Both the position numbers and the translations under genes were made by a program. Shown here one piece after another: positions 665-42,300 of a stretch of DNA of 64,000 nucleotides. Source of the DNA: Polytrichum commune. Its lineage: Eukaryota > Streptophyta > Polytrichopsida > Polytrichales > Polytrichaceae. Where the stretch lies: NCBI GenBank assembly GCA_950295325.1, contig OX485803.1:59783554-59847553 (forward strand). Reading direction: 5' to 3'. Below the pieces are notes generated by a model. The model saw nothing but the letters and a program-made list of their open reading frames with translations. It was not told the DNA's origin and ran no database searches. Within the stretch, counting starts at the first letter, position 1, and each line of letters starts with the position of its first letter.

Positions 665-800
665 CACACTTTAAATGATCTCATAGACCTTCGCACTTGT
701 ATTCACTACTGAACACATGAGGGTGTTTGTCATTTTAGTACATAGTCCAATCTCATTATAGCACATGTGTTTGTGGTGTCCATTCTTAACTACAACAAGA
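665..800 (-). repeat. Dispersed repeat R1, partial copy
   Basis: Read on the minus strand it contains the R1 core: a GGACACCA-like block, then ACATGTG, then GATTGGACTA. The same order occurs in at least eight other places in the window. No coding content is visible. Confidence 0.6.
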
Positions 801-1428
801 GATTGTATTGCATGCACCTACCGAAACCGCCCCGAAATAGTATGTTCGTTGGAGGTTACTTTTTAAGATGATTTGACACCATAATGAACTTCAGTAACCA
901 TGGGCAAAACATTGAAAACAAGGGGCTAATTGCAAGATTGCCTTACCCTGGTATTATCTCGTATACATGGCCAATGATGGTTGGCTCTCCGACCAGGACG
1001 AAACTTTGGCTCTTTTCAGGCACCACTTTACATCAACAATCAATTGCAACTGGACTTCGCTTGAGAAGCGAGTTACTAACAACATATGTAACTGAATCTG
1101 ATTGGATGCCAAACTTTGACCCACTCCATAGACCACCCTAAATCTTTTGCCACAACGCAAAGCCAATAATTTGTACCACAAACATACAAGGGACTTCTAC
1201 ATGAATGGATAAAAGACATACTTGGAATCAACAATCCCTATTGCCTTCGCCATAATAACTTATAACTTATCACTCAAACAATATAAGTTATGCGTCCAGT
1301 TGAGAAGCGGGGCCACACAAGCTTTGTGGTCTATATGTTGTGACCCATGTTTGAGTTATTAATTTCTAAGGAGGACATTTGAGGCACTAGTTGATAATAT
1401 TCATATGAATGATTAGGGTAGAGGTGTT

Positions 1429-5210: not shown

Positions 5211-5740
5211 CTTACTATGCATTGCTTTATATATTGACAATGTGGGTGAATTTTAGATGAGTTGCCAGGTACACCGGAAGAACAAGATGATGGCTACTGG
5301 TTCCGCGACACGAACATGATGGTTGTAAGTTAATCGAAGAATTAATTAAATTGTTGAATTACGCAATTGAGATTCATGATGAGCAAAGACTATACGGTTA
5401 CTAAGACATTACCCCGGACTTTGTCCAGATTATGAGCCATTGACAATTTGCCGAGCTCTTGAGCTTCATAACTGACATAGGTCGAAAACCATAGAGTGAT
5501 AGAACACTTTCCTTTGAGATAGGACAGACAACACTCACGACTGAACCTACACATATGAACTAATAAGGATGGGAATTGAGAAAATAAGTTAAGATTGGAG
5601 AGCATAAATAATGAGAATTAACCATAATGTTATTAAGAACCTTAATCCAATGTGACATTAACCCTTATAGACACTAGCTCAGTCTTCCTGGAGACCTTGT
5701 TCCCTGGGTTTTTGTGGTTTTAAGAACATAGCAAAAACTT

Positions 5741-5935
5741 ACTACAATCCCATTTCATATGTGTTACTATTCGGAGTTACTCATGATTTGCACTTTTAGT
5801 AATGGAATTTAGTAGGTTGTTCGGACTTTATAGAAACATAAATGACTTTGTTTGGTAGAATATTTACATTCTCGTTAAATAGTTATAGCACAACATGTAA
5901 CTCTGAATAGTAACATGCACTAATTGGGATAATCA
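5741..5935. mobile_element. Fold-back element, family M1
   Basis: Inverted arms of about 50 bases contain TGTTACTATTCGGAGTTAC on the left and its near reverse complement around 5895-5920. The arm resembles the arm of the fold-back at 53,269-53,493 (ACCATTTGGAGTTATG), so I group them as one family. Non-coding. Confidence 0.65.
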
Positions 5936-6629
5936 ATGTAGCATTTTTCCTCAAGAAAATATAACATCGTATAAATTATGTTTTCACGCACCTAAATATT
6001 TTTGGTAATGATCAAGCCAATACATTATTTAAGGCCAACTTGATGGCCGCTTGTCATTAGGTGATTTGGCATCGCCCTGCTTATTATTGTCATTGTCTCT
6101 TCAACATTTAACTTAAAATGAGGTGAAGGTTGAATATTTGATGGCCACTTGTCAAGTTGTCATTGGAGACTTGGTGGCCACTTCCCAAAGTAAAAGGTCA
6201 ATCGAGACTCCCTCATTCCCTCTCACACAAAAAGATGAATTTCCCACTTGAGGCCGGTTCATGTGGGGTCCCAAGTCCCAAATCCCAAGTCATGTTAGCA
6301 AGTCCCAACATGGAGGCAAAGACCCAACTTTTGAGCCTCGAGACACCATTAAAACATGGTTAATTATCATTAAAGTCGGATTTTGATTATTTTATGCAAA
6401 ATATTTGTGGGGCTTGTGTTGAGAATTAGGTCTAGCTTTTTGCTCGACCCAACTCTCAGCACAAGTCCCAAGCCTCACTTCCCAAAAAAAACGTTGCCAT
6501 GTAGGTACCCAAGTGTTACTTGGAACCCCATGTAGAGTGGCAAGTCCCAACTTCCATGCTCTCAATGGTTGAGATTGCACGGATTGACTTCGATTGACTT
6601 TGATTGGGACTTAGGACTTGGAACCCCCA
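5936..6629. repeat. Non-coding stretch with repeated AAGTCCCAA words
   Basis: From about 6,240 to 6,625 the words AAGTCCCAA, TCCCAAGTC and ACTTGGAACCCC recur in both orientations. No gene is seen. This may be a decayed inverted-repeat element, but the boundaries are not clear. Confidence 0.35.
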
Positions 6630-6788: not shown

Positions 6789-7474
6789 TGCCGTGTGAAC
6801 CAACCCTTATACCACTAATTTGAAGACATGGGTGTAGAGACAACAAGGAGGAGATGCAATTTGTCGTGTGCCACATTCGTCGTATAGAACAATTATCATG
6901 GGCCATGTCAATACCCATCTTTAGTGAAGTTAGCATCACTTCATTGGATATTTCTCTCACCGTGGGTGCAAGGGTTAAAGGACGAATCTTACAAAGGAGA
7001 AACGTGTGGCCACACTTGAACATTGTGATAGGGATAGTCACACTAATTTAGACATGTTGAATGTTCTTGGCCAATAAGAGAGCATGTCGGAACACTATTC
7101 AACCGATACCAAGCGTTATCCTTCTTAGAAAATTATCATCCACCAAATCTCTACCATAACATTCACGCCTGAATTTGGAGCTTCCGTCACATCTCATGAA
7201 ATTAACCGGGTGCAATACCCTAGATGTTTCTTGAATTTTTCATGACGCCTTGAACAAGAAAAACTCATATATTTGATGGTGATGAATTCAAATTTAATAA
7301 TAATAACAATAATCATAAACCCTTTGTCTAGCAAGATATTGGGTTGGACAACATAGTCCAACATTAGCATGTGGTTGTAGTCCATGAGCGAAGAGACTCT
7401 TCATTTATGCTCGCTGCCTCCTTAGGAAGCCAAACTTTATATCTATCTAAGATAGATGTGTTTGATTCCAACAC

Positions 7475-7760
7475 AACAGTAATATGAACACCTTTGTTTG
7501 AGTGGTCTATGATTAGGTGTGGATCTAAAGTCGGACACCATAAAGACACGTGTTTAAAAGTGATTGGACTACATGTTCAAGATACGTGAACCATTCTAAA
7601 TTCAATGATCAACATGATTGGGGGGATATGTATGACCACTCAATGAGCACAAAGACTCTACCTTTTTTAATGAATGAGGTATTCAAACGAGCTTCAAAAT
7701 TTATGAAGCAAATGGCTACATGCGCAATTTGGATTCGCTAATCATCTAGTAGTGATTGCA
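7475..7760 (+). repeat. Dispersed repeat R1 copy
   Basis: Contains the ordered R1 blocks: GTGTGGATCTAA, GGACACCATAAAGACACGTG, GATTGGACTACATG, a segment ending GTATGACCA, and the terminal GATTCGCTAATCATCT. It aligns by eye with the copies at 14.2 and 55.0 kb. No coding content. Confidence 0.7.
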
Positions 7761-7799
7761 TGTTTCATATCCAGGGCACAAATGCTAGACATCCCATGA

Positions 7800-10009: not shown

Positions 10010-12665
10010 ACGAGAAAATCCGTGACCAAAATTCGGCTAAATCTTTGAAGATGTTCAATGTTTCTTGGAGATTGTAATCCACCATTTTCCATGATAGTAA
10101 AGTATCTTTGAAGTGGGCCTCATGTCCTCTAATGGCTAAGCTATTGGGGAGGCTCTAATAGTAGTAACACATGCAACCCAACTTGACTTGACTCCCTCCG
10201 ACCAAATGTTGCGTTTGACTCACACTATGCGTGGCAATTGTTGCAAAGCACGAAAATTGGTGATGAAAATTTGGGCACGAAGTGGAAATGGTTCAATTTT
10301 TCCAAGAGGATGTCATCAACCATCATCATCATCATCATCATCATGGAGAGGTACAAGTGACGGCCCCGATTTCCCATGGCCCGGGAAGTTGGGATAACAA
10401 ACTTATCTTTGCATAACTTTCTCCAACCGAATGTTACGGTGTTTGTTTGTTTGTTTGTTTGAATAACTCACATTACGGTGTTTGTTTGTTGGAGATTGAG
10501 AAAAATGGATGATGAAAACTTGGCTAAACGTTTGAAGAAAATTCAATGTTTCCAAAAAAGGTGTCAAACACCAACATTGTTTATGGGGCACAAATGAAGA
10601 TAGTTCAATGATGTGTTTAAGTACATTTGGACAAATTTTGAAAATTTGGACTTTTTGGTTGCTTCAAATTTATTGGCGGAAACGTGCATAGATACTGAAG
10701 TTTTATTGGAGATATGTGAATCCGTAGTGATCACTAGGATATCAAGCTATTACTATATGACATTAAAAGTCATAATTTTAGTGCTAAATATGAGTAAATA
10801 AATGTCAACTAGTGAAAATACAATCAAAATAATTGCTATAATGTTATCATAATAAATTTGCATTTTCTATCAAAGGATCTTGCCATACAATCTTATCCTA
10901 GGATTCCATATGAGAACTCAACATGTTATAATTCAAGACTTGGACATAGTCCAATATTATTTATATCTAGTTTTAATTGCAAAAGAGAAACAACCGCCTT
11001 TTTAATTTTTCACTTTCTCAACCCACTCTCACACTGGATGGGGATTAGGAAAATATCCCAAGAGATGGACTATTCACATTCCAAATTATTCACAAATTAT
11101 AAGGATGCGAAAACATGTGTCTAGCACTGCACATGCTATCAAATTGGTTACAAAAACGAATGATTTCCGATGTATTTAATTTATATTTATATTTAATTTA
11201 TATTGAGTTCTCATCCCACTTTGCACACCATAACATTACACAACTCCTTGGTTGTGTGTTGTGGGACCAATACCACATGAGGATTGTTTGTCTTTCATCC
11301 ACGGATTCCTTCTTTATGAGGAGCACTCATGTTTTGTACTGTGAACTTTTCGACAAGCAATTGCAAATTATCAGAGTATTTTAATCACAACCTCTTTCTT
11401 TGGAAAGAGACCATCATGTGGTTGCTTAATACACTCCAAACTTTGTAACGTCGACCTCCTTAATATCACTCCTTCTCTTATATCCCGAATTGTAGGGAAT
11501 TGAAGTTCTCAATTTAAGTCCCCCTCCTTGTTGTCACATTTTCCTCCCAAAAATCATGGATTTCGACAACAAAATAAACCACCACAGAATTCAAACCACA
11601 TGCTCGCACACATGATGTTGTCATCATTATAATTAATGCCGATATTGTAATGTTGACTTTGTGTTATTTCATAGTGTCACACACTACACTAATTCCCTTT
11701 TATCATGCATCCATGTTAACAATATAAAACTCCTGAACGTCACGTGCACTTTGGTCGCCGCAAACGTGATATTACGGAATTTAGAGTGTAATGTTATCAC
11801 GGTCATAGTCCAACATGAATGATTACTTTGAAAACATATTCAATGCTTTTAACTTCCAAGAGGATGTCATCCATCCACTATCATCCTTTCATGGTGGGAA
11901 GGTTATAGTTGAGGAGCTAATAAGGGGCTCAGATATAGTGGTCACGTCCCAAGAGACAAGCTATCTGCCTTCCAAATTACCGACGAATTATAACAACATG
12001 AAAAAAATCAATATCAAAATCCAACACTGCATGCACTACACAAAAACTTTTGAAAAAGCCGAAATTTTTCTTACGGTTTATTTTTTAAAATAAAAATAAA
12101 AAACTAACAGATTTTGAACGACTTTCAAAGTCTTATCCTCTGTGCATGGCCATTGTCCAACATGAATGATAAAAATTTGGCTAACTAGAGTTTATGTAGA
12201 AAGTTCCTCAAAGAGGCTCAAAGAGGGACGGAACCGTGGGTTTAATCCTTCTTTGAGAATGCTTTCTATTAAGAGCTTATTAGCTCGTTGTGTGTTGGAG
12301 CATGTTTTGAAAGTTGGGTGAAAACTTTTGGTACCTCCTCTTCTCACCTCGAAAACTTGGAGAGAATCTTAGGATTTAAAATAGGGTATGCGCACGGGAC
12401 CCATTGTCCTAAATCTTGGATTGGCCTATGCAAATCAACTAGCTTGGCCCACCTATCCTAGTGGGACAAGCTAGAAAGTCGATCTTTAATAGCATGCCAC
12501 CACTCTTTGTGTATGATGACTTTGTGTTGATTCTCATAAACTCAGGGTGACTTTGTGACAAAACCTATGGTTTCACTTCCCAAATAACTTTGATGTTAAA
12601 AAGAATGATAATTTAATGCTTCCAAGAGGATGTCATCCACCATCATCTTTCATCATGGTAAGGCA
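10010..12665 (+). repeat. Cluster of degenerate repeats around CCAAGAGGATGTCATC
   Basis: The block AAATTTGGCTAA, then TTCAATG, then CCAAGAGGATGTCATCNACC, then a CATCATC stretch recurs in whole or part near 10,030, 10,300, 10,520, 11,860 and 12,610. An (ATC)n tract (about 10,312-10,345) grew from the CATC part of one copy, and a (GTTT)n tract lies at about 10,439-10,461. No reading frame is shared between copies, so this reads as a diverged local repeat rather than genes. Confidence 0.5.
12205..12475 (-). repeat. Dispersed repeat R2, copy 1
   Basis: Inverted relative to 35,105-35,345. Both carry the string of blocks for AGAGGGA, GAGCTCATTAGCTCGT-like sequence, ACCTC, CCTAAATC, GGCCTATGCAA and AGCTTGGCCCACC. 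Non-coding. Confidence 0.6.
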
Positions 12666-12699
12666 CCTAAGGTAGATGGGTCTTAAATGTCTACTTTTC

Positions 12700-13060
12700 T
12701 CTACTAGCCCACTTCTCATAGGATATTGACCATGTGATTATCATCAGATGGTTAGCACATCCAAATCGAGGTTGTAGTCACTTTCCTCACAATTTGTGAT
12801 GCTCGTGTGAACGTCTTATTCATTTTCAAATTGAAGATTCTCGTGCTCAGCAAGTGGTCATATTGGTCCCCCCCCCGGAATTATACTGACCATTGAACCT
12901 ATAATGGTTATCATATTTTAAACCCATAATCCAATCTCTTCAAAACACATGTCTTTCTAGTATTTGTTGTTGGAGCCACACAAAATCACATACCACTTGC
13001 ACATAAGTGTCTAAGTAAGAGGAGTAACCGAATTAGGCACGTCTACACTTAACACATAGT
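12700..13060 (-). repeat. Dispersed repeat R1 copy, inverted
   Basis: On the minus strand it reads from GTGCCTAATTCGGTTACT through GTGGCTCCAA, AGACATGTG and GATTGGATTA to GGATGTGCTAACCATC. It is the inverted partner of the copy at 14,185-14,510. It includes an eight-base C run near 12,870. Confidence 0.75.
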
Positions 13061-14184
13061 ACGAGTGACTTGGGCCCAAATTCTCCATGGCCCCCACAAG
13101 CCGGGGTATATTAATGGTAGCCTAGTAGTAAAGAAAGAAGGCTTGGCATTCTTGGTGTCTATGTAAATTTATCCATCATGAATGAAGGGCATTACGTTAT
13201 TCAGACACGTGGGTTAGTTTCATAACCCTAGAATATGTCAATTATATTATGTGGGCCCTTAGAACAAAGTGGGAATATTCGTTTACTAATCATACATTCA
13301 AGTTGAACTTGGAAATTTGGGTGGAGCTAGGGTGAGTTTCCATGTAGGCCACTTGCCCCAAGAGATTCTAGAAAATGATGGGTCGGAGGTGTTCACATGT
13401 ACTTAAACGCAAGCTGCCATCCAACCACATTATGGCGGTCTACTAGAATATGGAGGGTAGTGGATACATGCCGCTAGACTTCCATGTGCCCACTAAAGAA
13501 TCTTTAATCTACAAACGTCAGTCGCCTAAAGGTTTTGAAGACCGGTTTTAGAAGGAGGAGGAGGTTAGTAGTTGGGCCCAAATTTGAGAATGTGGGAGCA
13601 GCTGGTTGGAACCTACGAACCCTACCCACCATATTTCCTCTATATTTGGGCGGGTTTGTCCCTATTCACACTAGAATTTGGTGGGCGAGCAACCAACATG
13701 GAAACTCACCCTTATACTCTCGACACTATGCGCATGAATTATTGTTCATCCTAGGAATATTCGCAGGAACAATATTCATCCCAATATTATTCCCTGAAAT
13801 TATAATTCATAGCAACACTAGTATTGACAATACTGACACTACTCACAATATTCAAACCATTCAAACCTTAACTATTCATATTCGTACCAATGTCAATTTC
13901 TTCCTATTTTCCGAGTTCCTTCCCATGAAGGTAAGATAATGGAGGCCAATGTTAGATGCTAAATATAGAATGAAACACAACCATGCAGTTGAATAATATT
14001 ATGAGGCTCCAATAAAAAAATCCCCCCACAAGATCAAGGACAGAGTCATTCCAATCTCACTCCACTCCACTAATGCGGGGTCTTTGACTCTATTTTGTGG
14101 AGTCACATCTTCCACAAATAGTAATTTACATGATGTAATAGATTTCACTACGTCTTTACCTTTGCAAATGGATAAGTTTACGTA
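13061..14184. other. Gene-free stretch
   Basis: A 134-codon frame at 13,535-13,939 has no domain, a poly-Arg start and low-complexity Ile/Thr composition, so I do not call it a gene. Nothing else is recognised. Confidence 0.5.
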
Positions 14185-14510
14185 AGGTAGACGTGCCTAA
14201 TTCGGTTACTCATCTTAACCAAACACCCGTACTTGAGTGCTATGCGATTAGATGTGGCTCCAAGAACGGATACCAAAAAGACACGTGTTTAAAAGATATT
14301 GGACTACATGCTCAAACTATGATAACTATTGTAAGCTCAATAGTCAACACAATCGGAGACACTATACAACCACATAACGAACACGAGAATCTTCACTTTG
14401 AGAAAGAAGAAGACAACCCATATGAACCCTTAACATTATGAGGAAAGCATGGCTATGGCTTCGATTTGGATGTGCTAATCATCTTGAACTGATCGCATCT
14501 TAGGGGAGAA
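14185..14510 (+). repeat. Dispersed repeat R1 copy (near full length)
   Basis: Begins near GTGCCTAATTCGGTTACTC and ends after GGATGTGCTAATCATCTT. It is the best copy for judging R1 length (about 330 bp). No coding potential. Confidence 0.75.
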
Positions 14511-20400: not shown

Positions 20401-22400
20401 ACCGTACCTGTTCATTATTCATCCAACAAACCCAATAGTGGCTATGCAATAGATCCAAGCCTTGTTTACCACTCTTTCATCTAATGGCTTCCAATTAGCC
20501 AAACTGAAAACATATCATGATCAACTTTCTAACTGATAACCATTTTTCCGGCTATGAAGTTCAGTAAAGACAACCTTCCACTGTTACTACAAGGTATGTT
20601 ACTTTCCTTGTACTCTACTGTGTTTATCACATGGAGAATTGACGATTGTATGTTAGAATAAATACTTACAATTATCATGAGATTGAGGGCCACTTCACAC
20701 ACGAGCCAAGAGCCGTGACCATGAAATTCTGAGAGCCCAAAAGGAAGTGTCCAAAGGCCGTCCCAACACACCTCCAAAATCATGTAGTGTGGTCACGGAT
20801 CCTTGAGTGTAGTGTGAAGCCATATGTGATTAGGCCCTCAACCAAACGTTATTTTAATGAATTTCTATTCATGGGGGGTTTCACACATGATAAAGTAGAG
20901 TAAAGCAATGGTTGTGATCATTCAAAGTGCCGTGGTCTTCCTGGTTTTGTGTTAGACCTACGTCTAAGAGGTGGTTTTGGAAAATAATCCAAGTAACCAT
21001 GAAACATGATCCATTGGATGCCATGTAGGAAACTATGCAGACTTTACATCCATCTTGCATCACATACTCAGTTGGTCCCTCAAGCGTAGTCTGAAGCTAA
21101 CTTGGACCGGCTCCACCTTTTCCACCAATGAGAGTGCTTTGAAGTGTAATGGTCACAAGCTCTCAGTCTCATGTTTGAAGTGGCCCTGAGTGAGAGTTGT
21201 TATTAGAGGATTGGTATGCATATTGTGAGTGAATGCAAACCAACATCCACTCCTATATAGTTATGACCTACTAGGGGTTTTTGTTAGGTGGTCTCTCTCT
21301 CTATGCTTTGTTGTCTTATAAAACTAACATTAATCTATTTCGCAATAGTCTTCTTGAAAGAAAAAAAGAAAAAACTTCAAGCTCATTATAAATATACATG
21401 TACATGGAAGGTATTACACTTGCCATGAAAACAAACACACCACTATGATAGATGAAAAGGTAAAATAACCAAGGTTGCAGACGCAAGTCATGTCACTAAA
21501 CCATGGTCAAAATCTAGGGTTTATGGGAACTTACCATGATTAAGGTCTCCAATATAAACCTTGAACCCTAAATAAACTTCCCTTTTTTACCATTCACATA
21601 AGTGAGAGGAGGTGTTCATACTTACCGAGGCAGTAGATATGTGCTAAACATGGGAGAAGTTAGGGTAAACCACAAGAAGAATATTCTACTTGAAGTTACC
21701 CAATCCTGGCAAAGGAACATGTTTGAACACTCGTTTTTCATCTTGCAATGAGTGAAGTAGTTTGAAATACCACAATGCATTTGAAATTGTTAATGGCGTA
21801 TGACATGGATGACAATTGGGTTATGTTGTTATTTACCTCATGTACATGACTTATCCTCAAATATGTGGTGGTTGGTGGCATGGGCACATGTGAGGCATGC
21901 CATTCACACTTTCAACTCACATAATGATGTATTGTGCTCAAGAGTTTTTATACAATGTTATTGGATGAAGTTATTGGGAATTTGTACCATGGTAAGTGTT
22001 CCATTGGTAATGTTACATATGTCTTGTGGTGAAGCAAAGGATGTTTGCTTGAACTTCCAAGGTATTAGAAATTTATACTCAAAACCTTGTTGTTGGATAT
22101 CATTGAAAAACATAACCCCTAGGTATGGTAAACATTTTTACAAAGCAACTTAGCCTAATACACAAACATGTGGATACCTCACCATGCACATACTTAGCTA
22201 TATTTGAAACCAAATACACTCTACCATGCAAACAAATACTTTGTTACAAATGTGAATGTTGAAAAAGAAGTTGAAGGAGTTCATGGAAAATTCTCATCCA
22301 CCCACCCTTGCATTGCAATGAAGAAGAGTTTGAAGGGTTTGGCCTCTGAAAGTGGAAGTTCAAGCTTTGAAAAAAGTTTTGAGAAATGAGCTATCTCTGT
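20401..22400. other. Gene-free stretch
   Basis: A 117-codon frame at 21,800-22,153 has no domain I can defend. Otherwise AT-rich, with no gene or clear repeat. Confidence 0.45.
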
Positions 22401-22627
22401 GTAAGGCAGAGGGAAGCTATCTTATGAGCGATGAGCAGTGAGCGGTGAGCGGTGAGCAGTAACACATGAGCAATGAGCAGTAACATATGAGCAATGAATC
22501 CAAATTTAGTAAAGACACACGGGTTTAGGGTACACAACCAGAATTTTGACAAATTAATTGCATATTTTCAATTATAAATTGCCAGTATTTTAAATGAAGC
22601 ACACGTGAAAGGGCCCTATTGCCATGG

Positions 22628-23065
22628 ATCATTTAAAGCACTTTCAATTCATTGTTGATTTTTATTATAATAATCCAAACCAATACATGTCATTTATTGA
22701 CATCCTTATACATGTAGTTACAACCAACACTTGCACAACTACTCACATTCCACAACACCAGCAAGTTCAAGTAGGTGCATAACCTCATTATATGTATATG
22801 TAGGTGCCATAATTGTGAACCACTCAAACCGCTCACGGTTGGGTCGTAGTCTAAATAAAAATGAAGTTACTGAATCATTTGAAATACTTTTAGTCCATTG
22901 CTAATTTTTATTATAATAATCCAAACCAAAACATGTCATTTATTGACATTAAAATATATGTTGCTTAATAAAACACTTGCAATATTACTCACATTCTACA
23001 ATACCAGCAAGTTCAAGTAGTCGCATGACCTCATTATAGGTATATGTAGGTGCATGAATGAACTT
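22628..23065 (-). repeat. Tandem duplication of the SWIM gene 3' end
   Basis: Segments 22,628-22,820 and 22,877-23,065 are about 243 bp apart and align. Both encode, on the minus strand, a terminal APTYTYNEVM followed by LLELAG and the same end VECE-stop, then a shared 3' flank (AATAATCCAAACCA, ATGTCATTTATTGACAT). The outer copy is therefore a detached duplicate of the last roughly 25 codons. Confidence 0.85.
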
Positions 23066-24965
23066 GTCACTCTCGTAATTCACCTTACACAAAAATCTAA
23101 ACACATAATAAAGATGTTTATAATACACCAATTTTCCTTTCTTTCCCAATGCATGAGAGGACATTTTCGTGAAATCCGGGCATGTGCAATGCGAGATGTT
23201 GCCAATTGTGACATGGTAGGTGATATCCTCCTTGGAGACAATATTGATTATCACTCCAAAGCCCGGATATGGAATGGCAGTGACTCCAACCACATAGTAA
23301 TTTTCCATGAGTCCGGTGCTTTCCCATTTGTTTTTGTGATCCGCCAGCGGTGCTATTGGATTATGACGCACTGTCTTCCCAAACCTGAATGTAGGGTGGA
23401 TATCCGGGTTTGGTGGCATACAAAAATGCGAGCGAGGGATGGGAAGAGTTGCGATTGTTGAAAGCCTACAACGAGGGGACAATGTCTCCCTCTGCTGTAG
23501 TTAAAATTCAACATCTTCAAGTGCCAGAACCTCCTTTCTCGATAGATTGGTACCTATCTTCACCGGCCACGTGTTGGGTAATATAGGCCAATCCAAAACA
23601 TATTTCTTCTTACTGCCACTCACACAACGCTTGATATCGTCAAGGCAAAACCAAAATTCATATTCCACATTGTTGGGAGAGCAAAATTCCTTCATGAGCC
23701 CTTTGTATGTCGGAGCAGGTGTGCCATGTTTTCCAATCCGGACTTTGGTATTGCACATAGTCCCTGTAATGGCCTGCAGTGCCCAACATCGTTTGACTGA
23801 GTTGGGTGGCAATCTTGTAATGTGCCACTTAGAAGTAAGACAAACAGTTTCTAACACGGATGTAGTATGAGACACACTATGAATTGCAAACTCAACGATT
23901 CCTCTATGCGTCGACGAGTCGCTCGGGTGTTGGGACGATGAATGAAATAATTCACTTTGTCGGGTCGATGAGAATCACAATCAACACCCGGTGATAGGTT
24001 GAGTTTGCGTTTGGTGGAACCAAAAAACTCTGACCCTTCCAATGTACAATCTTTAGTGTTGACGTCTTCTGCCCCTCGATAAGACTTCGTGGCATCAACC
24101 AATATTTTTGGATCTCCACACCTGACAACTGCTTTGAGTTTCAAAGATGCCAAATAAGGACCTTTACCATCAGACCCCCTCTCAACCATGTCCGGTAATT
24201 TGCAATTTGCATGAAGGCATGGATCATGTCGTCGACTATAGTTTCATATAAACAAGTCATCTTGTTGCCGGATTGTTGGAGCCATTTTTTGTCTACAGTC
24301 TCTGCAAGGTTGCATGTTGGCATTTCCACACGTTCTTTTATTGTCATATCCTATGGACAACACACAAATATGAGGATAAGAAAATATAAGATATATATAA
24401 CAATGAAAGAAAAATGAATGACATTGAATAGTGAATTTTGATATGTACTTACAAATAGCATATGACCACCCCATTGTCTGTAACGAAAGTGCCAAAAACC
24501 CAACCACTTTGAAAGGCAAAGCAGATCTGGATGACAACCACCAAGAACGAATCACATGATACTTAGTCTCGGTGTCGTTCATTGTTTTCGCGTCTTTGTA
24601 ATCCTTGCATATTTGCTTATGTTGAAACTGCAAGAATGGTTTGATATAATTTTGGGTCACCTTATCCAAGCTCGCAGACCAATGGAAAAGACATGTACAC
24701 TTACGTGCAACCATGGAGAAATACGCCACACAATACAAAAAAGAAGAACAATCTTCTGAGGCGGAGATGGAGGTAGGTTATACGAACGAAATGGTAAGAT
24801 AATAACTTTAAAATCAAAATAAATTTGGAGGTATGTAATGTATATTATATTGTGCACGCCGAGAATACGATTCCAACGGTATATAGCATGAACAAAATGA
24901 TTTTGTTTTGCATGTTTTAGAGCCAAAAAACAATCAAAGCATCTTCGATCTTCTAAAATCTTCAA
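22985..24965 (-). pseudogene. SWIM zinc-finger, Mutator-like element protein (broken)
   Basis: Pieces in order on the minus strand: 24,740-24,450 (CLFHWSASLDKVTQ, IRSWWLSS), an intron with GTAAGT donor and CATAG acceptor (about 24,452-24,352), 24,350-24,180 (CNLAETVDKKWLQQSGNK), 24,189-23,870 (SEFFGSTKRKL), 23,875-23,504 (KRCWALQAITG) and 23,482-22,985. The last has a SWIM-like CTCPDF ending in YYKH: C99-x-C101 is present, but Y121 stands where the CxCxnCxH pattern needs Cys. A one-base slip in a G run near 24,180, a second shift near 23,870 and a TAA at 23,501-23,503 break the frame. SWIM domains bind zinc and nucleic acid and often end Mutator-type transposases. The upstream catalytic region is missing or unrecognisable. 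Confidence 0.7.
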
Positions 24966-26132
24966 AACATGAAGATTTTATGCAGGAAATCTAACCATGT
25001 TAATTTCAGTATACTTTAGCGATTTATGTAAAATTAACATCATCTCCAAAAATTCTCAAAACAATTGGAGTAAATGGCAAGGCTATAATCTATGCACTTG
25101 ATTTTTTGCGGAAATAAATTAAAATATTTGAAAATGTTATAGCAACTCCAGAAAGTGATTCAAATCAATATGCATTTCTCTTCCAAATGGGTAGCCGTTA
25201 ACGGCCACCCTTTCTATGATGCCAACTTCTGTGTTCTAGTTTAGGGCGGCCGTCAACGGCCACCCTTTGTATGATACTAACTTCTCTGTTCTAGTTTAGG
25301 GCAGCCTTTAACGGCCACCCCTTTTTGGGTTTCACTCTTCATTTAACAACATAATTTCTTTGAAATAAAATCATATATATACATATATTTCTTATGTTTG
25401 CTCCATCTAAAAGTGTGGCCGTTAACAACCACCCTTGGTTGCATCTCAGATTTATTGGTATATGTGTTTCTTTTTTCATGTATACACTCATTTCCGTCAT
25501 TTTTTGTCCTTCAACAAGGGTAGCCGTTAACGGCCACCCTTATTGAAAAATCAGATTATTTTCTATACATGTTTCTTTCTTCATGTATACACTCATTTCC
25601 TTCATTTTTTTTCTTCCAACAAGGGTGGCCGTTAACGGCCATCCTTATTGAAATTTCATATTCTTTTCTAAATGTGTTTCTTTTTTCTTGTATACACTGA
25701 TTTTCTTTATTTTTTTCCTCCAACAACGGTGGCCGTTAACGGCCACCCTTATTGAAATTTCATATTATTTTCTATATGTGTTTCTTTCTTCATGTATACA
25801 CCCATTTCCTTACTATTTTTTTCCTTCAACAAGGATGGCCGTTAACGGCCACCCTTATTGAAATTTCATATTATTTTCTATATGTGTTTCTTTCTTCATG
25901 TATACATTCATTTCCTTGATGTTTTGTCCTCCAACAAGGGTGGTCATTAACGGCCAATCTTATTGAAATTTCAATTTTTTTTGTATATGTGGTTTTCCCT
26001 TATGTATACTCTCACCTTTATAAATGTTTTTGCATATTATTTTAGTTTGCATATGTGATCTCTTTCATATGTATATATTTCTTTTAATTTGTTTTTGTGT
26101 TTCATATGGGTGATATTTTTTGTGCTTTAGAT
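24966..26132. other. Intergenic spacer between the two divergent element genes
   Basis: AT-rich spacer that must hold the upstream regions of both genes. It contains the palindrome array at 25,190-25,958. Directly upstream of 26,133, a T-rich tract ending in TTTAG looks like a splice acceptor, so a further 5' exon may exist. No other reading frame is seen. Confidence 0.5.
25190..25958. repeat. Array of GGTGGCCGTTAACGGCCACC palindromes
   Basis: Nine perfect or near copies of a self-complementary 20-22-mer centred on GTTAAC start near 25,190, 25,244, 25,299, 25,414, 25,518, 25,623, 25,728, 25,833 and 25,938. The last five sit at 104-106 bp spacing inside a tandem unit that also holds TTATTGAAATTTCATATT and ATGTGTTTCTTTCTTCATG. 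The first three are about 55 bp apart. The array lies in the spacer between two divergent genes. It could be a multi-site binding array or a simple minisatellite. Confidence 0.9.
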
Positions 26133-27733
26133 ATGAAAGTTGTATTTCTTTCTGAAGATCAATTGGAGTTGTAATTGCATGTATTTTTTAAGAAAGAAAT
26201 TGTGAACACATCTTCCCGTCTTGAACGGTTGAGGTATCAATCAAGGGCAAAATCAAAATTCAACGTTCCACTGTGTCCAATAGTTGCATTGCCCGTTGTC
26301 AGGCCTTTTTTGAAAAATAACATTATGAACCTGACTGCTCATTTTGTTGCTTGTGGTTATATGGAAGGCAATGGAATTTTTGACATAGCCTTGGAAAATA
26401 ATGAGGGGAAAACAATAGATGTTACCGATAGTATCATTCAATCATGAAGTGAGAATTGGGTACGGACAAATGATGTATTTGAAAAAATATTGCAAACTGA
26501 TGAGGATCTTAAAATTTTCTCTGGCAAAATGTTCATGGTGTGGGACGGAAATTACCATTTGCAAGCATGGTTGCATATTATTAATCGAGATCATACACAT
26601 GATCATACTTGACATTATGTTGTTGAAAGTATTATTTTATACGTCAAGGGAGATATTGCAACGGTAGCTTCACATGAAGTGAATTGGTAATTCCTTCATT
26701 CTTCTCTTTTTATTTGTTCGGTTCATTTGGTTTTCTTTTAAAAAAAAATTTATTGTATATATTTTTTTCTTCGCTTATCATTGGTTGTTTTATTTTGTCA
26801 GGAGGAAACAAAAATTCCATGTTTGTACGAATCTTGTTCATAAGCTTTTCCGCATTCAAAGCATTGATGTGCAACCATATTCATATTTTGAAAAAGTTAT
26901 CTCTAAAGAAGATCTTATTGCCGATGATGCCAAACAAAAATCGAAACATAGGACTTGGTTAACTTTGACTATTAAGGCTCTTAATGGATTTCTATACTAG
27001 GTTATTTTTTCTAAAATATTAGTTTTTCACGCATTTTTTTGTCTTGTATATATATATATATATTTATTTATTTTTCTATAACTATATGTTTTATTGCATC
27101 TTATTTTTATTATGTGTGATTTATGATACTCTTATATTTTTTTCCCTAGTGTAGCAAGAGTTGGGAGATGCTGCTGCTACTGCTCAAAGAAAAATTTATG
27201 AGAAATAGCATGATCATGCATATTGGACTTCAAGTGCAATGGATAAATTTGTTTTCAAAGCTGTTGAGAGGGTGAGATTGACTTTCCATTCGGAACTAAA
27301 GAAACATCTTCTCATTGCAGATTCTAAACATTCTCCTATGTTCTTAGAGCAGGTGAAGTCTCATTATGAAACTCACGATGAAAATCATGAGATGACTCAA
27401 GAAAAACTTTAGATGTTAGCAACTTCGGCAATGGATACATCTATGAAGATTAAGTGGCTTGAGAGGTGGAACAGTTCACCTGCTCTTCGTGGGACTCTCA
27501 AGTTTCCGAAACCAAAATTCAATGATATAGAGTTTCCTAAGTGGCTTCATAAAGCTACTTGATGGGCTCAGGTGATAATTTTTTGTCTATGTTTTTTATG
27601 TTTTTTAATATTTTTTCAATCATTCAATTTTTCTAATCTTTATTTTGTATTTGGCAGTTGGCTATTGAGACCGAGAAGCTCTTTGATGCTACTGTGGCTG
27701 ATATGCATGTGTCCATCAACTATCTTCCAGATG
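26133..27733 (+). pseudogene. Four-exon element gene with DGN-H-L motif (broken by stops)
   Basis: Exons fit 26,133-26,686, 26,802-27,000, 27,155-27,571 and 27,658-27,733. Each intron begins with GT and ends with AG, and the frame is kept across all three joins (phases 2, 0, 0). Exon 1 encodes LERLRYQSRAKSKF, then GKMFMVWDGNYHLQAWL; exon 2 TNLVHKLFRIQS; exon 3 WLERWNSSPALRGTLKFPKP; exon 4 TEKLFDATVADMHV. Seven in-frame stops occur (TAA 26,172; TGA 26,445; TGA 26,610; TAG 26,998; two TAG and one TGA in exon 3) but no frameshift. The VWDGN-H-L motif resembles the DGNHR-type block of ParB/sulfiredoxin-like folds; that link is a guess. I do not recognise the family. It probably serves the surrounding element. 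Confidence 0.6.
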
Positions 27734-28354
27734 GTTTGGATCCTTTGCCCATTATTTTTATTTTTGATATTTGATTTCCAAGAACTTCAACAATTTAAAC
27801 CTACTACCCGATTTATATCTACAATCCACTTTTGTTGTTCTTTATGTTTTGGACTTCGTAAATGTCACCTTCATGATGGTGTTATGATGTATTCAAATTT
27901 TACATTGATGTGTATTATAGTGAGACATTCTAACGTGCTACATTTGTTTTCAACATGAGTTTGCTTACACATTGTCTCCAATTACATAATTATTATCTCA
28001 ACAGTTGAATGTATATTAGTTCATTTTTAGTACAAAATTGTTATAGCAACATTCTCATTTGTTGTTCATTTGGGCTATAGACCCTTACATGTAATTCTAC
28101 AATCATAGGCCCCCAACGGATTTACAAACCATAACCGGGAAAAAATTGAAGGCTCACATGTTTACACTCGCATGCTCACATACTAGCAACCCCGAGTCGT
28201 GTACATATTGGTCTTTTTCATTGCTCACTACTTGCAATCTAGCATTCACATTGTTTGTCCTCCCCAATCTTCTTATTATTGAACCCTAAAAATTTGTTTC
28301 TTTAGGCCACGGTTATAGGATACTAGGGGTCCTATTACCAAATATTTTGTTTTC
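27734..28354. other. Non-coding 3' part of the element
   Basis: AT-rich, with no gene. Probably the 3' flank of the plus-strand element gene, up to the right inverted end. Confidence 0.45.
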
Positions 28355-28410
28355 TTCACCGCTCACAAATTACTGCTCATCGCTCACCGCTCACAAGATA
28401 GCACTCCCCT

Positions 28411-28956
28411 GTGAGGCATAGGATATGGAGAGGGGTATCTTGGTAAAAGGGTAATTTTATCCACCATAAGAGTAACACACCGTATCGTGAACATCATGAT
28501 CCAATATGTGCTCCTTTCTTCACATGGCATAAGCTTATGGGATGTGTATAGAAAATGGTGCAAGTGTAGACATGTGTAGAATCAACAATATACCATATTC
28601 AAAATAACAAGTATTTTATGTGGACTGAAAAGTACATTGAATCTCAAAACTAAGTTAATCAACAAAACAACAAAATTTCGGGAAACCATATCTGGAATAA
28701 TATTGATATTTTTGCCAAACCATAAATTGCGTCTAATAGGCAACCAAGTTGGCTATCATGCTTCCAAATTCCAGCTTGAGTATCATAGCAATGAGAGAGA
28801 AATTGCATTTCAGATTAACTTAGGTTTATAGACTAAGTTCTAGAAATGTTTTCATCACTCACCTTCAAATGCAAGAATAAGTTTGTAGCACCACCTAGGG
28901 CTCTTTCTCTCACTCCTAGTTAGTAATGTGGTTTCTTAGGACATTTTCTCTTACAG
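28411..28956. other. Gene-free stretch
   Basis: Nothing recognised between the end of the two-gene element and the Tc1/mariner relic. Confidence 0.45.
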
Positions 28957-29655
28957 TTGCGAAGGTTTTTTTTGCCCATGAGAGGATTACCAAAGGAGAG
29001 AAGGTTGAATCCTATAGCCTTGTTGCAACATGGGTGTAGCACATGTGAAGTGTCAAATTTGTTGAATATCTCTCAATCTACATGCACTAGGATTCATAGA
29101 GAGTGTGTTCCTTATGTGGAGACTTCAAGAGGAGGGCACCCAAGAAGCATCATCCATGTTCAATGACGAGTGTGTGTAAGAGCCAACACAATTGGTGGAC
29201 TAGATAATATTGTAGACGTGATGAATTGCTTTGAGTGAGCATTTGAATGTGGTAGTGAGCACCAACAAAATGAGGCATACACTCTATGAAGCATGTTTTG
29301 GGTCATTCAAGAAGTAGACAAAGTCATTGCTCACAACCAAGAACGTGTGTTGCATGTTGGAATTTGCCCAACATCATCAAGATTAGTCTATCCATGACTG
29401 GTATAGGGTGAATTTTAGTGATGACACTAAGATAAATCAATTTCATTTTGATGGCTGCACTTGGTGTGGGTGAGGGATGGGGAATCTCAATTACAAGCTC
29501 ATTAGATGAGTCAAACATGAAGGTAGTGCAAATTTTGCATGGGGTTGTATGACTTCCCGTGGCATGGGTTACATGTGCAAAATAGAGGTGAAGATGACAC
29601 AAGCTTCAAGATGCATCTTAGCGTTCTTCAAGATGGGGTCATGAAGACAGTTGAT
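28957..29655 (+). pseudogene. Tc1/mariner transposase relic
   Basis: The N-terminal 65 codons give a helix-turn-helix DNA-binding segment (LPKERRLNPIALLQHGCS, then LNISQSTCTRIHRECVPYVE), and the next frame starts RVCVRANTIGGLDNIVDV. Further along, frames give EFAQHHQD, then SIHDWYRVNFSDDTKINQF, where the first D after FS matches the first acidic residue of the DDE/D catalytic triad, then WGCMTSRGMGYMCKIE and VLQDGVMKT. Stops and shifts are numerous. The relic ends abruptly near 29,655, about halfway through the family's usual 330-350 residues, where LINE sequence begins. Terminal inverted repeats were not found. Confidence 0.7.
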
Positions 29656-36289: not shown

Positions 36290-36625
36290 TCTCTCTACAC
36301 CCACTTCTTGTAGGATATGAAACACACATTTAGTGTAAGATGATTAGCAAATCCAAATAGTCATTTGCCTCCTAATTTTTGAGGTTCATACAAACACCTT
36401 ATTACTTATTACACGAAAATTTTCATATTCTTAAAGTGGTGATATAGCCCCCCTCCCAATCATGCCGACTATTAACTTATAATAGTTAACATATTTTGAG
36501 CACATAATCCGGTCTCTTTCTACCATATGTCTTTTTGGTGTCCGTTCTTAAATCTACACCTAATTGCAAACCACTTAAACACATGTGCCCAAATTATTGC
36601 TATGTTGGAATTAGGCATGTCTACC
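36290..36625 (-). repeat. Dispersed repeat R1 copy
   Basis: Minus-strand copy from GACATGCCTAATTCC (right) to GGATTTGCTAATCATC (left), with AGACATATGG and GACACCAAAAAGA between. It contains a short poly-C tract near 36,450. Confidence 0.7.
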
Positions 36626-38399
36626 ATAGACTACTTAAAGTGGCCTACATTGAACTAAAGCACCCTATATAAGTGGTGTGAGAGGCCGAGTCCCAAATCC
36701 ATTGACAATGGTCCAACCAGTTCTCTGGACCAAGCCTAGTGGTCCAACCAAATAAACGGCAAAAACGAGGGCCCAACTCCCCAACTCATGGTTGAGGTGG
36801 GCCAATCATTTGAACCAAAACAAACACCTTATCTATTTTGGTACCCTTAATTCTTCCCACATAATTGAATGAAAGAAATACGCTCACATTCAAAACAAAA
36901 AGAAACCCGGTACATCAAGCTCTCAAATCCAAAGGTCATTTAGGCCATTTGGTCTAATTGTTGTTCCCATAGACCCAAATGATTGGAGCAATTAAGGAGA
37001 TCAAGTGAAACCCCAAGCAATGGTTCCAACATTGAATTCAAAGCACATTCTCTACTTGCAACTTTATAAGGTATGTGGGTCTTATGTGGCCACTTTTCTT
37101 AAACAATGCCTACATTTTGGGACATTTTGGGAGTGTATGACATAACATATAGTCAAGAACATGCACTAAACTAACATTTGTCGTGATGAAGTAGACTATG
37201 TCCACAAAGTATGACATCATTCTAGGTTCGATTATTTACACAATTGGAAAGGTCTATGTGATCAATTAAAAAAAGAAGAGAAAAGGTTAATCCTTATTGT
37301 GACCTCTCATGAAATTGTATCTCAAATTTTATTATGAAACTCATAACATCAAGTTGTGTGATTTGTAGTTGCTAACGACATGAGACAATTCTTGATTAGA
37401 TCCAACCATCCAAAATATGTGTGAAGTGAAACCGCCCAAAATAGGAGCACATACCTTAGTACACCCGTCTTCAACAGTAAGAGAGCAAGAGAAGTTCTCC
37501 AATTTGAAGCAAAACAAAGTGATGCACCAAGCTTATGAATCCAAAGTGGAAGAGTCCAAGCAACCCTGCACGCCAATCCAAACGATCGCGCCAAGTAAAC
37601 AAACAAACAACGGGGGGAGCCCACTGTCCAGCCAATGGGCAACCAACACACCATCAAAACACCTTATCTGTTATGGGCCCATTAATGTACAACTAAAGGT
37701 GAACCGGACCTCAAGCATAGCAATGCCTAGGCATCGGTGGGTCGATTTTTTCTCTTCTCTCCATAAACAATAACAATATAAAAGAGGCCCAAAATCGATT
37801 AGGCGAGCCCAACGAGGGGGGGGGGGCAGAGGGTTATGCTATGGGAATGTCAGACACTTCCGTATCCCAGAATGCCACCTCAAATGCCAAAAGGTTATGG
37901 TTTTAGAAAGGGGGTCCAATTTACCATAATAATAGGGCAAAACAAAATAAGGAGGCGTGGGAGGTCTTTACCACTAATGATTGGTAAGGCCAGTCATGGG
38001 TCGACTCCAACATCAAACCCAAGTAAAAAGAAAGAAACTAATGCCAATGTTTGGAAGAAAAAAAAATTATTCATTGAGGAGAATGAGGCAAACCATCCTG
38101 GGTAACATAATTTATAACTACATCAACAATATCACACTATGAATAACTTCAAATGCACAAGTGGATGACAATAAGTTGCACTGGTTGAAACACTAGAACA
38201 TAAAACCAAACATTGCCTAAACTCTTGACACAATCTCCTCCTGATGCTTTACACTTGGAAGCACAACATGCCTTTTGACACTGTGTCCCCTAGTAAAAGG
38301 ATACATAAACACAAGGACTCAAGATTGCCCCCCCCCCCACCCCCACCCCTCAAAATGCATACAAACATAACCCCACAACAACCATTTGGGATATGCGCT
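36626..38399. other. Gene-free stretch
   Basis: A partial R1-like segment lies at about 37,180-37,330. Poly-G and poly-C runs occur at about 37,817 and 38,328. No gene recognised. Confidence 0.45.
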
Positions 38400-39301: not shown

Positions 39302-42300
39302 ATGGCCGCTGCTGCTGCCACACCTGTTGATGCGGTATGTTACTATGTACCCATGTGGCTGGGCTAAGTAAAGGATCTCCTTGTGAATTGGACCCATGCT
39401 GCTTGTCTATGTGTTTTATGTGTTTTTATGTGTTCTGTGTATGTGCTTGTTTTGTTTTGGGGGGTTATGAGGTGGAATGAATTAGTAGTGTGGTGTGGGT
39501 ATGGAGTGTGGAGTGTGTGTGTGGGAGGGGGGGAGGGGAGGGGGGTCTTTTTCGATGAGGTGATGGTAGGTGAGGGGGTTGGGAGCTGCGGGAGTGGGGT
39601 GCTGTGGGGTTGGAATTGGGTTTGGGTGGGAAAGAATTCCATTCCGGTGGTTGCTATTGGGAATGCTGGTGTCGATTGGCAGGAGGGGACGTGGTGTGGG
39701 GGGAAGAAAGAGGTCATCTGCTTTTTGTTGGTTGCTGGATAGATGGATGGATGGATGGATGGATGCGTAGCAAGTGGGTGGGATAACAGGAGATGATGTG
39801 ACATTGGATAGTGGATGCCTTGTAATTCACTGAATTTTAAATGTGTGGTTAGGTTAGGCATGGCGTGTTGATGCTGTTTGTGTTGCTGATGATTAAGAGT
39901 AGGAGAAAAGAAAAGAAAAGAAGAAAGGCACATGCAAGTGGTGACGATTACATGTGTGTGTGTGTGTGTGTGTGTTCGGCGGTAAATGCAGCCAAGTGGA
40001 ACAGGAAGCCGGAGGGCAGTAGTGAGGAGCGAAAGATTTATGGAGTGGCAACGAGAACTCAGCAGGTCAGTGACAAAACTCAGTCAGTCGGTAGCTTGGA
40101 TTAGGCGAGTGCATTGCGTACAGCTGCAAGGTTGAGGTTTTCTTTTGATGTCAACCAAGAACGTGGGAATACTTCTTGGAGTCATTACCATAGAAAAGGA
40201 GCGAGAAAAGAGAGCGAGGGATTTATATATGGATTTTTACCTATGTTTGTGTGCATACATGAAACACATGTCCTTTCGTTTCTGTGTGTGTGTGTGTTTA
40301 GCTCGCGGGCCACATATGGGGGGCGGAAGCGCCAGGATGACAATGAGGTTATGGAAGGTGGTGGTGGCATGAGGATGTTCTGTGGTGGAAAAAGGTATTT
40401 CTTTAATTGATTCATCGTTGTAAAGTGATCTCTTAGACATGTAGGTATAGTGCACAATGATGTGCTGATCGGCCCCTGGGGTTAACTTCGAGGGTGATCC
40501 GAGCATCATGTGAGACCTAGTGGATGGCAATGAAGGAAAATCTATCTGCATGGGCGTGGGCGGAGTGTGCATGGTCGACATTGGATTTTGGGATTACCGA
40601 AATAGGGTGAAATGGACCAGATGACTTAACCCAACGCTGGGTTTGAGATGGGTTTGGAAACTGGGGTCTAGCTAGAGAATCTATGAATGTTGGGGGGATC
40701 AATAAAAAAGTTTGATCAGGGGTTATGGGATATTGAAGTTGGGGTTTGTGACGCTGTAGTTAGTTTTTGGGGCGGCTATTAAGCTTTTTGTTGCGTGTGG
40801 AGTATTGTGCTCCTTTGTGCTTACTCCAAAGAATGGATAAGTTTTGGAAGACATTTGAGCGACAAAGACAATGTGGAAATATGCCAAGACATGATGAGGA
40901 AGTTTCGGAAACTGGGCTCTATCTAGAGAAACTACAGTGTTCAGGGATCAATAGAAAAAAATAGGGGTTATTGAACTGTTGAAGTTGGGGTTTGTGATGC
41001 TGTAGTTAGTTTGTGGGAGGCTATTAGGCTATTTGGTTGGGCATGGAGGGTTGTGTCCCTTTGTGCTTACTCTAAAAAATGGATAGATTTTGGAAGGCAT
41101 TAGAGAGATGAAGACAATGTGAAAATGCTGAGACATGAGGGTTCAGAAACTGGGTTCTATCTAGGGAATCTATAGTGTTCAGGGACAAATAAAAGAAATT
41201 AGGGGTTATTGAATGTTGAAGTTGGGGTCTGTGACGCTGTAGTTAGCTTGTGGGAGGCTGTTAGGCTATTTGGTTGGGTGTGGAGGGTTGTGTTCCTTTG
41301 TGCTTACTCCAAAGTTGGTTAGATTTTGGAAGACATTCGAGAGACAAAGGCAATGTGAAAATGCCAAGACATGAGGGTTCAGAAAGTGGGTTCTATCTAG
41401 AGAATCTATAGTATTTGGGAATCAATAAAAAAAAATCAGGGGTTATTGAATGTTGAAGATGGGGTTTGTAATGTTTTTTTTGTGTGTGGAGTTTTTGTTC
41501 CTTTGTGCTTACTCCAAAGAATGGATGACTTTTGGAAGGCATTCGAGTGACGAAGACAATGTGAAAATGCCAAGACATGAGGGTTCGGAGGAGAGGGAAG
41601 GAGAAGGTGAGGAACCCACAGCAGATTCGCAGGGGGGAGGCGGTGGAGGCGGAAATGGAGGAGGAGGAGGAGGAGGTGATGCAGGTGCTGCTGCAAATCA
41701 AAGAGTTAGAGGGAAGAAACAACAACACCAGCGGCAACGGTCGGATGCGAAAAAACACCGAAAAGATAATAACGAGGGTGACCAAAAACAACAGCAGCGA
41801 AGTGCATTGACCACTATTAAAGACTCAGCTACACCTGCAGCAGAAGGTGAAGGGGGAAGGATGAGGAAATGTAAGCAGCAACAAGCCCCCCAAGTCAGTC
41901 CCGCAAGGCGGCAACAGGCCCCACAGGCACCCACACAACAGCAATTACCTCAACCCCTAGCTCGGAGGAGGCAACGGCGATTGCCTCGTTCTTTCACTCC
42001 TCCTAAGGAAGAAATTGAACGAGGCTTGCGATCTTTGACAAGGTAATTAACCATACTTTTTGCCTATCTACCTCCACAAGGCAATATGTTTCTCCCTGCA
42101 TACGAAGACCTCAACCAACTACACTAAACCTCTGACTTAGTGTGGCATTAAAATTGTCATTTGACACCCTCTCTAGTTGCCACCTTACAATTGCAAGACA
42201 ATTAATGTTTGTCGATGATCAATAGTGTGGGTCACACTAAATCAGATGTCTTTAGTGTACCTTATTGCCTTTCTCAGAAGGATGGAACCATGTAACTTTG

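Follow-up and report, generated by a model that had tools for sequence, protein, structure and literature searches.

Within the window, i.e., the whole 64,000-nucleotide stretch of Polytrichum commune DNA analyzed here, lies a transposon copy in which the remains of two divergent genes flank an array of palindromes. Its features are as follows:

22400..22408, unstranded: left target-site duplication TGTAAGGCA, matching 28410-28418 at 8 of 9 positions; family length 10 bp
22409..28409, unstranded: whole transposon copy, 6,001 bp, with ends common to related copies
22409..22498, plus strand: left terminal repeat, GAGGGAAGCTATCTTATGAGC... with GAGCGRT sub-repeats
22625..23053, unstranded: two copies of a 183-bp repeat, 246 bp apart, 83% alike (within-window repeat family D3)
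22985..24717, minus strand: transposase gene remnant with the end of the DDE part and the C-terminal SWIM part, aligned to longer copies
23100..23218, minus strand: SWIM-like motif (CTC...KH), Pfam SWIM 0.023, below the cut-off
about 24351-24453, minus strand: intron of the transposase remnant, from alignment to longer copies
24717..24724, unstranded: left internal deletion junction; 3,368 bp of the longer copy C6 absent
25189..26014, unstranded: array of nine palindromes, core GGGTGGCCGTTAACGGCCACCC, with a 55-bp period to about 25353 and a 105-bp period thereafter
26133..26686, plus strand: right gene exon 1, GNHR-type domain, ParB-like by eye; reads GNYH here
26802..27000, plus strand: right gene exon 2
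27155..27571, plus strand: right gene exon 3
27658..27774, plus strand: right gene exon 4, shortened by the right deletion
27756..27759, unstranded: right internal deletion junction with a T-rich overlap of about 4 bp; methyltransferase-like part (about 2,265 bp) gone
28350..28409, minus strand: right terminal repeat, terminating in ...GCTCACAAGATAGCACTCCCC
28410..28418, unstranded: right target-site duplication TGTGAGGCA, matching 22400-22408 at 8 of 9 positions

The limits of the element are exact, with 22409 and 28409 being the start and stop of 24-nt end patterns in related copies. The first-pass annotation had reported inverted ends about 6 kb apart, and our analyses confirmed them. Their arms measure 39 nt (82% complementary) and 31 nt (87%), and a local alignment of both ends scored 54, compared with a mean of 19.1 and a maximum of 38 in 400 random window pairs and a maximum of 36 in 300 shuffles. 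Two perfect occurrences of a 21-nt end pattern are present in the window, against 0.01 expected. Direct flanks of 9 bp had been noted as well; they are present, but the original register with 7 of 9 matches was superseded by one that is flush with the ends and matches at 8 of 9 positions. Under the family's strict 10-bp register, the window flanks match at only 2 of 10 positions because they are one base out of step.

Both genes are broken in the window. The left-reading gene, described previously as SWIM/Mutator-like, holds as a coding remnant from 24717 to 22985; the first approximately 620 of 1,167 transposase residues are absent, and the remainder shows frame changes and one stop. The SWIM profile PF04434 gave 0.023 and 0.087, both below cut-off. 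The transposase of longer members has a zinc finger-like segment, a DDE-like part and a SWIM-like C-terminus, and in C6 its frames of 712 and 455 residues contain no stops. This 1,167-residue C6 protein had no match to Pfam MULE, and DUF6208 (0.17) alone was listed at E up to 1. The right-reading gene has the four exons predicted for it, with GT-AG borders and no frameshift (1,287 nt, 428 codons plus stop), but it contains seven internal in-frame stops and its 3′ part is lost.

The window copy is a dead, non-autonomous internal-deletion derivative of a large DNA transposon family. We considered it as a complete element, which the longer copies C6 and L011 ruled out. C6 spans 12,395 bp between perfect 10-bp duplications (ccaactaagt on both sides), and compared with it the window copy lacks 3,368 bp on the left and about 2,265 bp from the right gene; the right gene of C6 is itself broken in exon 1. 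Longer members (about 12.4 kb) have ends of the form GAGGG...CCCC, 10-bp target duplications and two divergent multi-exon genes, the transposase reading leftward and a GNHR/methyltransferase-like protein rightward, with the palindrome array immediately ahead of the right gene. In L039, for example, the array lies at 5454-6117 and the right gene starts at about 6260. The same two deletions were found in 15 of the 22 copies examined (20 fetched, L029 and the window), with right-gene codon 160 reading TGA in 15/15 and codon 251 reading TAG in 14/15 window-type copies (one gap). Since junctions and fixed stops are shared while the duplications are each copy's own, these copies spread after the deletion. 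Most copies examined have thus lost the transposase start and the methyltransferase-like part together, yet still spread. The first-pass annotation did not foresee that the window copy is dead by internal deletion, nor that the second gene is longer and has lost its methyltransferase-like part here.

A search of the moss's own genome (407.8 Mb) found other units with the same ends and both genes. Among 17 copies with both ends recognized, 12 had perfect 10-bp target duplications and two matched at 9 of 10 positions; L020 and L023 showed no clean duplication. There are 443 occurrences of the right end (control 0). At 60 of the 100 exact right ends listed, one or both genes stand in the expected place, and among the gene matches listed neither gene is near the other 40, two of which were later accounted for by a third right-gene class. 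The transposase lies divergent and upstream within 12 kb at 23 of the 150 right-gene matches listed (0.35 expected), and the other three arrangements occur 1, 1 and 0 times; at the remaining 127 there was no divergent transposase within 12 kb among the transposase matches listed. As a whole, the element proposed by the first-pass annotation, bounded by ends of its own and combining a SWIM transposase-like gene with a divergent spliced second gene and an array in between, passes the check suggested there and is supported by the exact ends and 10-bp duplications common to copies.

The array between the genes was also correctly recognized as GTTAAC-centered, with nine matches in the window against 0.63 expected in shuffles. 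Genome-wide, 332 sites with at most one mismatch were found (control 0), and 48 of the 50 exact sites listed are close to a family match. The 22-bp palindrome is conserved at 0.907 in array units and at 0.662 elsewhere, a contrast inflated because units were chosen by their match to the core. The stretches fetched for L042 and L052 contained no GTTAAC site, and hence not every right-gene class shares the palindrome.

In longer copies, the right gene encodes an N-terminal GNHR..AW domain and a C-terminal part that, judged by its sequence, is related to N6/N4 DNA methyltransferases, methyl transfer being a putative activity. The GNHR domain appears ParB/sulfiredoxin-like by a motif seen by eye only. 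Pfam, NCBIfam and PDB profile searches with six members gave no ParB match, PDB profile searches with alignments A1 and A2 gave chance-like matches only (eL24 0.014, SWT1 1.0), and the predicted fold of window exon 1 alone was uninformative (pLDDT 33.8). The methyltransferase part of C6 matched phrog_3008 (1.5e-5), phrog_6952 (2.6e-4) and phrog_67 (0.012), all named DNA methyltransferase, and N6_N4_Mtase was the sole Pfam family listed (0.0013). The N6_N4_Mtase matches of the C6 and L042 right genes are below the Pfam cut-off. The right protein of L052, an element with a right end as in the window family and an 86% identical transposase, exceeds it (5.2e-8, 33.6 bits against a cut-off of 26.7, profile positions 1-216 of 221); it aligns to the C6 protein with 29% identity over 278 columns (BLASTP 5e-25, a single comparison). 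Of the best 11 chromosomal PF01555 matches, 10 are located inward of one of the exact right ends listed, at a distance of 1.1-1.8 kb, and for 8 a divergent transposase lies 9.3-10.5 kb upstream. Pattern scans for prokaryotic and viral relatives gave 21, 41 and 66 candidate stretches, none of them confirmed, and a phage tblastn search gave one match with an E of 5.

The canonical catalytic motif IV of N6/N4 DNA methyltransferases is [DNS]PP[YFW]. All eight rows of alignment A2 instead read A[DE][YI]P[DE]G, and L052 reads VDIPYG (DIPY), so that catalysis is putative and the enzyme may be inactive. The right protein could hence be a DNA-binding protein with a methyltransferase fold but without catalytic activity, serving at the palindromes solely as a sequence-specific regulator. 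The position of the palindromes immediately before the right gene and, with the reservation given above, their conservation would fit such a role. However, the motif-I region (D.T...G..IRAA) is retained in all four A2 rows that reach it, and L052, with D-I-P-Y-G and G-T-G, is near-canonical; we regard a dead enzyme as somewhat unlikely. More improbable still is that the element is an ordinary Mutator-like transposon and its second gene is host or passenger DNA that was captured and plays no part in the element's life. In favor of this, gene fragments are frequently acquired by Mutator-like elements (PMC6446971, in part), window-type copies spread although their right gene is not intact, and motif IV is degenerate. 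Yet right-gene exons occur at no fewer than 150 places (986 and 1,202 candidates), free of stops in about 127 of the 150 matches listed, and the divergent position and strand order recur in right-gene classes that share only 39-46% identity with the query. For L043-L044, the single pair whose divergence was suitable, dN of the methyltransferase exon is 0.029 and dS 0.561, as under purifying selection; within the window family, pairs of very low divergence have dN about equal to dS and show no clear constraint. An accidental neighborhood of several older repeats might be suspected from the decayed window copy alone with its imperfect duplication (8/9). It is refuted by duplications around whole units, and with many copies sharing exact ends, 10-bp duplications and gene order, it is hardly conceivable.

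We consider it probable that the window holds a dead, non-autonomous copy of a cut-and-paste-type transposon family with a transposase and a divergent GNHR/methyltransferase-like partner gene. Deleted copies would be moved in trans by the transposase of full elements. The right protein may bind, and perhaps methylate, element DNA at the palindrome array and might thereby maintain the activity of the element's promoters or control its transposition, in the way that VANC serves VANDAL elements. Its role would likely be self-directed epigenetic control. Right-gene domains only 39-42% identical to a reference copy adjoin transposases that are 88-92% identical, which suggests that partner genes were exchanged between elements keeping the same ends and transposase. 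We may further speculate that one lineage with constant ends and transposase swaps its partner among a pool of GNHR-methyltransferase proteins that have diverged from one another, and that each class writes or reads a bacterial-type mark, N6-methyladenine or N4-methylcytosine, at its own promoter-region array (GTTAAC palindromes in the window's class); we hold this extended scheme to be unlikely.

Transposons with epigenetic enzymes are already known, i.e., TET/JBP in fungi, SET genes in oomycetes and VANC in plants (PMC12730594, in part). The element here resembles Mutator-like elements in its inverted ends, target duplications (8-11 bp there, 10 bp here), SWIM-bearing transposase (here SWIM-like, below the profile cut-off) and opposite second ORF, and plant MUDR groups include members with a second, antisense PMD gene; a GNHR plus methyltransferase-like partner is of a type absent from the description in the accessible parts of that source (PMC6446971). 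Unlike Mutator-like elements, its transposase lacks a Pfam MULE match. The second gene of VANDAL elements, VANC, is thought to act sequence-specifically on the silencing of its own element (PMC12730594, in part). A similar proposed effect may apply here, with the short palindromes as presumed targets. To our knowledge, VANC is not a methyltransferase relative and in this differs from the right gene. Fungal DNA transposons of KDZ and other lineages likewise combine a transposon with a DNA-modification-type gene, the TET/JBP dioxygenases (PMC12730594, in part), in contrast to the methyltransferase-like gene, different transposase and not fungus-specific setting seen here. Bdelloid rotifer N4CMT is also a bacterial-type, N6_N4_Mtase-kind amino-methyltransferase in a eukaryotic genome, but it belongs to the host, is fused to a chromodomain and silences transposons, whereas the gene here rides on one (PMC8885841, in part). 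In the open-access literature we found no report of a transposon with a GNHR plus amino-methyltransferase-like partner.

If active, the right gene would introduce N6A or N4C marks into the control of eukaryotic transposons, and the GTTAAC palindrome array offers a testable site for this putative marking. Partner exchange between same-ended elements, if true, would be a new transposon route to escape silencing. Should both the exchange and the marking hold, the element would possess an epigenetic identity system of its own.

The element at window 22409-28409 is a real transposon. Its inverted ends lie where the first-pass annotation had placed them, and their score far exceeds those of random and shuffled pairs; the SWIM-type remnant on the left, the four exons of the right gene and the nine palindromes were likewise found at the positions it had proposed. 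The direct flanks were confirmed, with a correction: their best register matches at 8 of 9 bases, not 7 of 9, flush with the ends at 22409 and 28409. Genome-wide, the right-end pattern with at most two mismatches occurs 443 times, versus 0 for the control. An array probe (window 25000-26000) gave 124 match rows in the source genome (407.8 Mb, 64 contigs), with 40 of 101 candidates scored. The duplication test covered 20 of these loci (L-numbers) and the window: 17 copies had both ends recognised, three lacked one end, and L022 was left out of the count because its chosen ends were in the wrong order. A perfect 10-bp duplication flanks 12 of the 17 (L009, L011, L014-L017, L021, L024-L028), and 9 of 10 bases match in two more (L010, L013). 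The remaining three fall outside the 10-bp register, namely L020 (4/10), L023 (1/10) and the window copy (2/10 in strict register, 8/9 when shifted by one base).

Further repeats and an open frame were seen in the window:
7446-7772, 12665-13051, 14182-14484, 36293-36630 and 54958-55584, both orientations: dispersed repeats of ~300 bp, roughly 67-82% alike
28927-29166: open frame that includes a helix-turn-helix-like stretch, which we take to be reminiscent of Tc1/mariner transposases
40650-41589: tandem array of 237-bp units
56080-56787: tandem array of 144-bp units
Elsewhere in the genome, C53:24963-25762 and C2:19233160-19233959 gave identical match rows, which suggests that the region is duplicated or one contig redundant.

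The copy in the window arose by deletion from a longer form. A long copy on contig C6 (C6:16355261-16367655, 12,395 bp) has the same ends as the window family and ccaactaagt duplicated on both sides. Its left gene is open in both exons, which encode 712 and 455 residues with 0 stops, and the window remnant begins at about residue 621 of this protein. Relative to C6, the window is missing 3,368 bp in the left gene region, and its right gene is shorter by about 2,265 bp and has lost the C-terminal part. Among the 22 copies examined (20 array-probe loci, the window and L029), the window structure is present in 15; five (L011, L015, L019, L022, L025) have lost the right-gene start and kept a longer 3' part, and in L014 and L016 the right gene is reduced to 3' pieces. 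A stop at right-gene codon 160 is found in all 15 window-type copies and one at codon 251 in 14, with a gap in the fifteenth, although codon 251 sits at the assigned exon 2 border, which is possibly misplaced. Since they have these stops in common, window-type copies spread with their right gene already dead and their transposase gene truncated; they would have been moved by transposase supplied from other copies. The C6 right gene carries one stop and one frame change in exon 1, and hence no window-family copy examined is proven intact in both genes. Just outside the L029 copy, a stretch (123-918, minus strand relative to the element) resembles the left transposase gene at ~71% identity; genes related to this transposase are therefore common in the genome.

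The palindrome array lies directly in front of the right gene. With at most one mismatch, the palindrome occurs at 332 genome sites versus 0 for the control; 48 of the 50 exact sites listed are close to a family match, and the other two, at C4:19240424-19240933, have none nearby. Across 172 array units from 23 loci, conservation is 0.907 in the palindrome versus 0.662 in the remaining unit, the units having been selected by their match to the palindrome itself. The array is a predicted binding or methylation site. GTTAAC, the centre of the palindromes, is absent from the stretches examined of L042 and L052, two loci with diverged right genes, and the array is thus a feature of the window's class. 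Upstream of the L042 gene, 53-bp tandem arrays take its place; L042 1-4400 (C4:31543000-31547400) holds 53-, 75- and 84-bp tandem units preceding this other-class right gene. Eight copies (C1:4050355, C1:17189330, C1:42562598, C1:73646819, C2:21073759, C3:16475543, C3:58318625, C7:38234421) match the probe in one common broken pattern, which suggests that they form a young subfamily whose array is longer; in L029, one of the eight, the spacing alternates between 55 and 155 bp.

In the N-terminal domain of the right gene, P-L-C-R, G-N-H-R and A-W are kept in all six diverged copies aligned; the GNHR motif reads VWDGNHRLQAW in C6 and VWDGNYHLQAW in the window. Judged by eye, this domain may resemble the ParB/sulfiredoxin fold, a reading that we treat as a lead because searches of Pfam, NCBIfam and PDB returned no such match. 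The C-terminal part of the C6 right gene has matches to three families of phage DNA methyltransferases (1.5e-5 for the best) and, below the cut-off, N6_N4_Mtase (PF01555; 0.0013); the L042 version is weaker (N6_N4_Mtase 0.0053, phrog_3008 0.15). L052 matches PF01555 at 5.2e-8 over profile positions 1-216 of 221 and the C6 right gene at 29% identity over 278 columns (5e-25). The motif-I region is kept. Canonical motif IV is [DNS]PP[YFW]; at this position all eight rows of the C-terminal alignment have A[DE][YI]P[DE]G, and L052 has VDIPYG. By sequence, the C-terminal part is shown to be a methyltransferase relative with putative enzyme activity.

A genome search with PF01555 gave 118 matches among 121 scored, five of them over the cut-off: two chromosomal and three on the small contigs C10 and C12. 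The latter (C10:4592-5212, C10:15117-15353, C12:29682-30278) are strong matches and possibly bacterial contamination. The context test took in 25 matches. Of the 11 best chromosomal ones, L052 among them, ten are found on the inner side of a listed exact right end and eight have a divergent upstream transposase; the remaining 14 have 0 right ends and two transposases. The two chromosomal matches over the cut-off and most of the next best belong to transposons of the kind described here. Between L043 and L044, the methyltransferase exon has dN 0.029 versus dS 0.561, so it is kept by selection in this class, whose transposon membership is putative. Comparisons between classes give a dS of 1.8 or saturation, with dN at 0.29-0.44. 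Among L032-L038, dS is 0 to about 0.05 and dN about equals it in several pairs; these copies are thus recent, and constraint is not seen in them.

The nearest known kinds are Mutator-like elements whose second gene is antisense (PMC6446971), VANDAL elements, which carry VANC, and fungal transposons carrying TET/JBP (both PMC12730594). In the open-access literature, we found no report of a transposase paired with a GNHR/methyltransferase-like gene. The transposase gave no Pfam MULE match, and we therefore label the transposon Mutator-like in structure, with putative membership.

Linkage of the two genes was assessed on 150 listed matches per gene, from 1,202 right-gene and 1,849 transposase candidates. 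A divergent upstream transposase lies within 12 kb of 23 of the 150 GNHR matches listed, whereas the three alternative arrangements account for 1, 1 and 0; 500 random placements gave a mean of 0.354 and a maximum of 3 for the divergent-upstream arrangement. A methyltransferase-exon match follows downstream on the same strand in 65 of these 150. Among the gene matches listed, the 100 exact right ends listed have both genes in 14 cases, the right gene only in 37, the transposase only in nine and neither in 40; two of these 40 (C4:44110596, C1:33364591) are accounted for by the PF01555 context test. In five linked pairs (C2:1345069, C7:25890103, C2:42426009, C3:1700247, C7:34210568), the transposases are 88-92% identical to C6 and the GNHR domains 39-42% identical to that of L042. 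Identity to the window's GNHR domain is 39% in L050, one of the five, versus 77% in C6. At C1:16420999, C4:13143531 and C5:39490848, this exact right end also goes with right genes of 39-45% identity. The simplest reading of these comparisons would be that partner genes are exchanged between elements.
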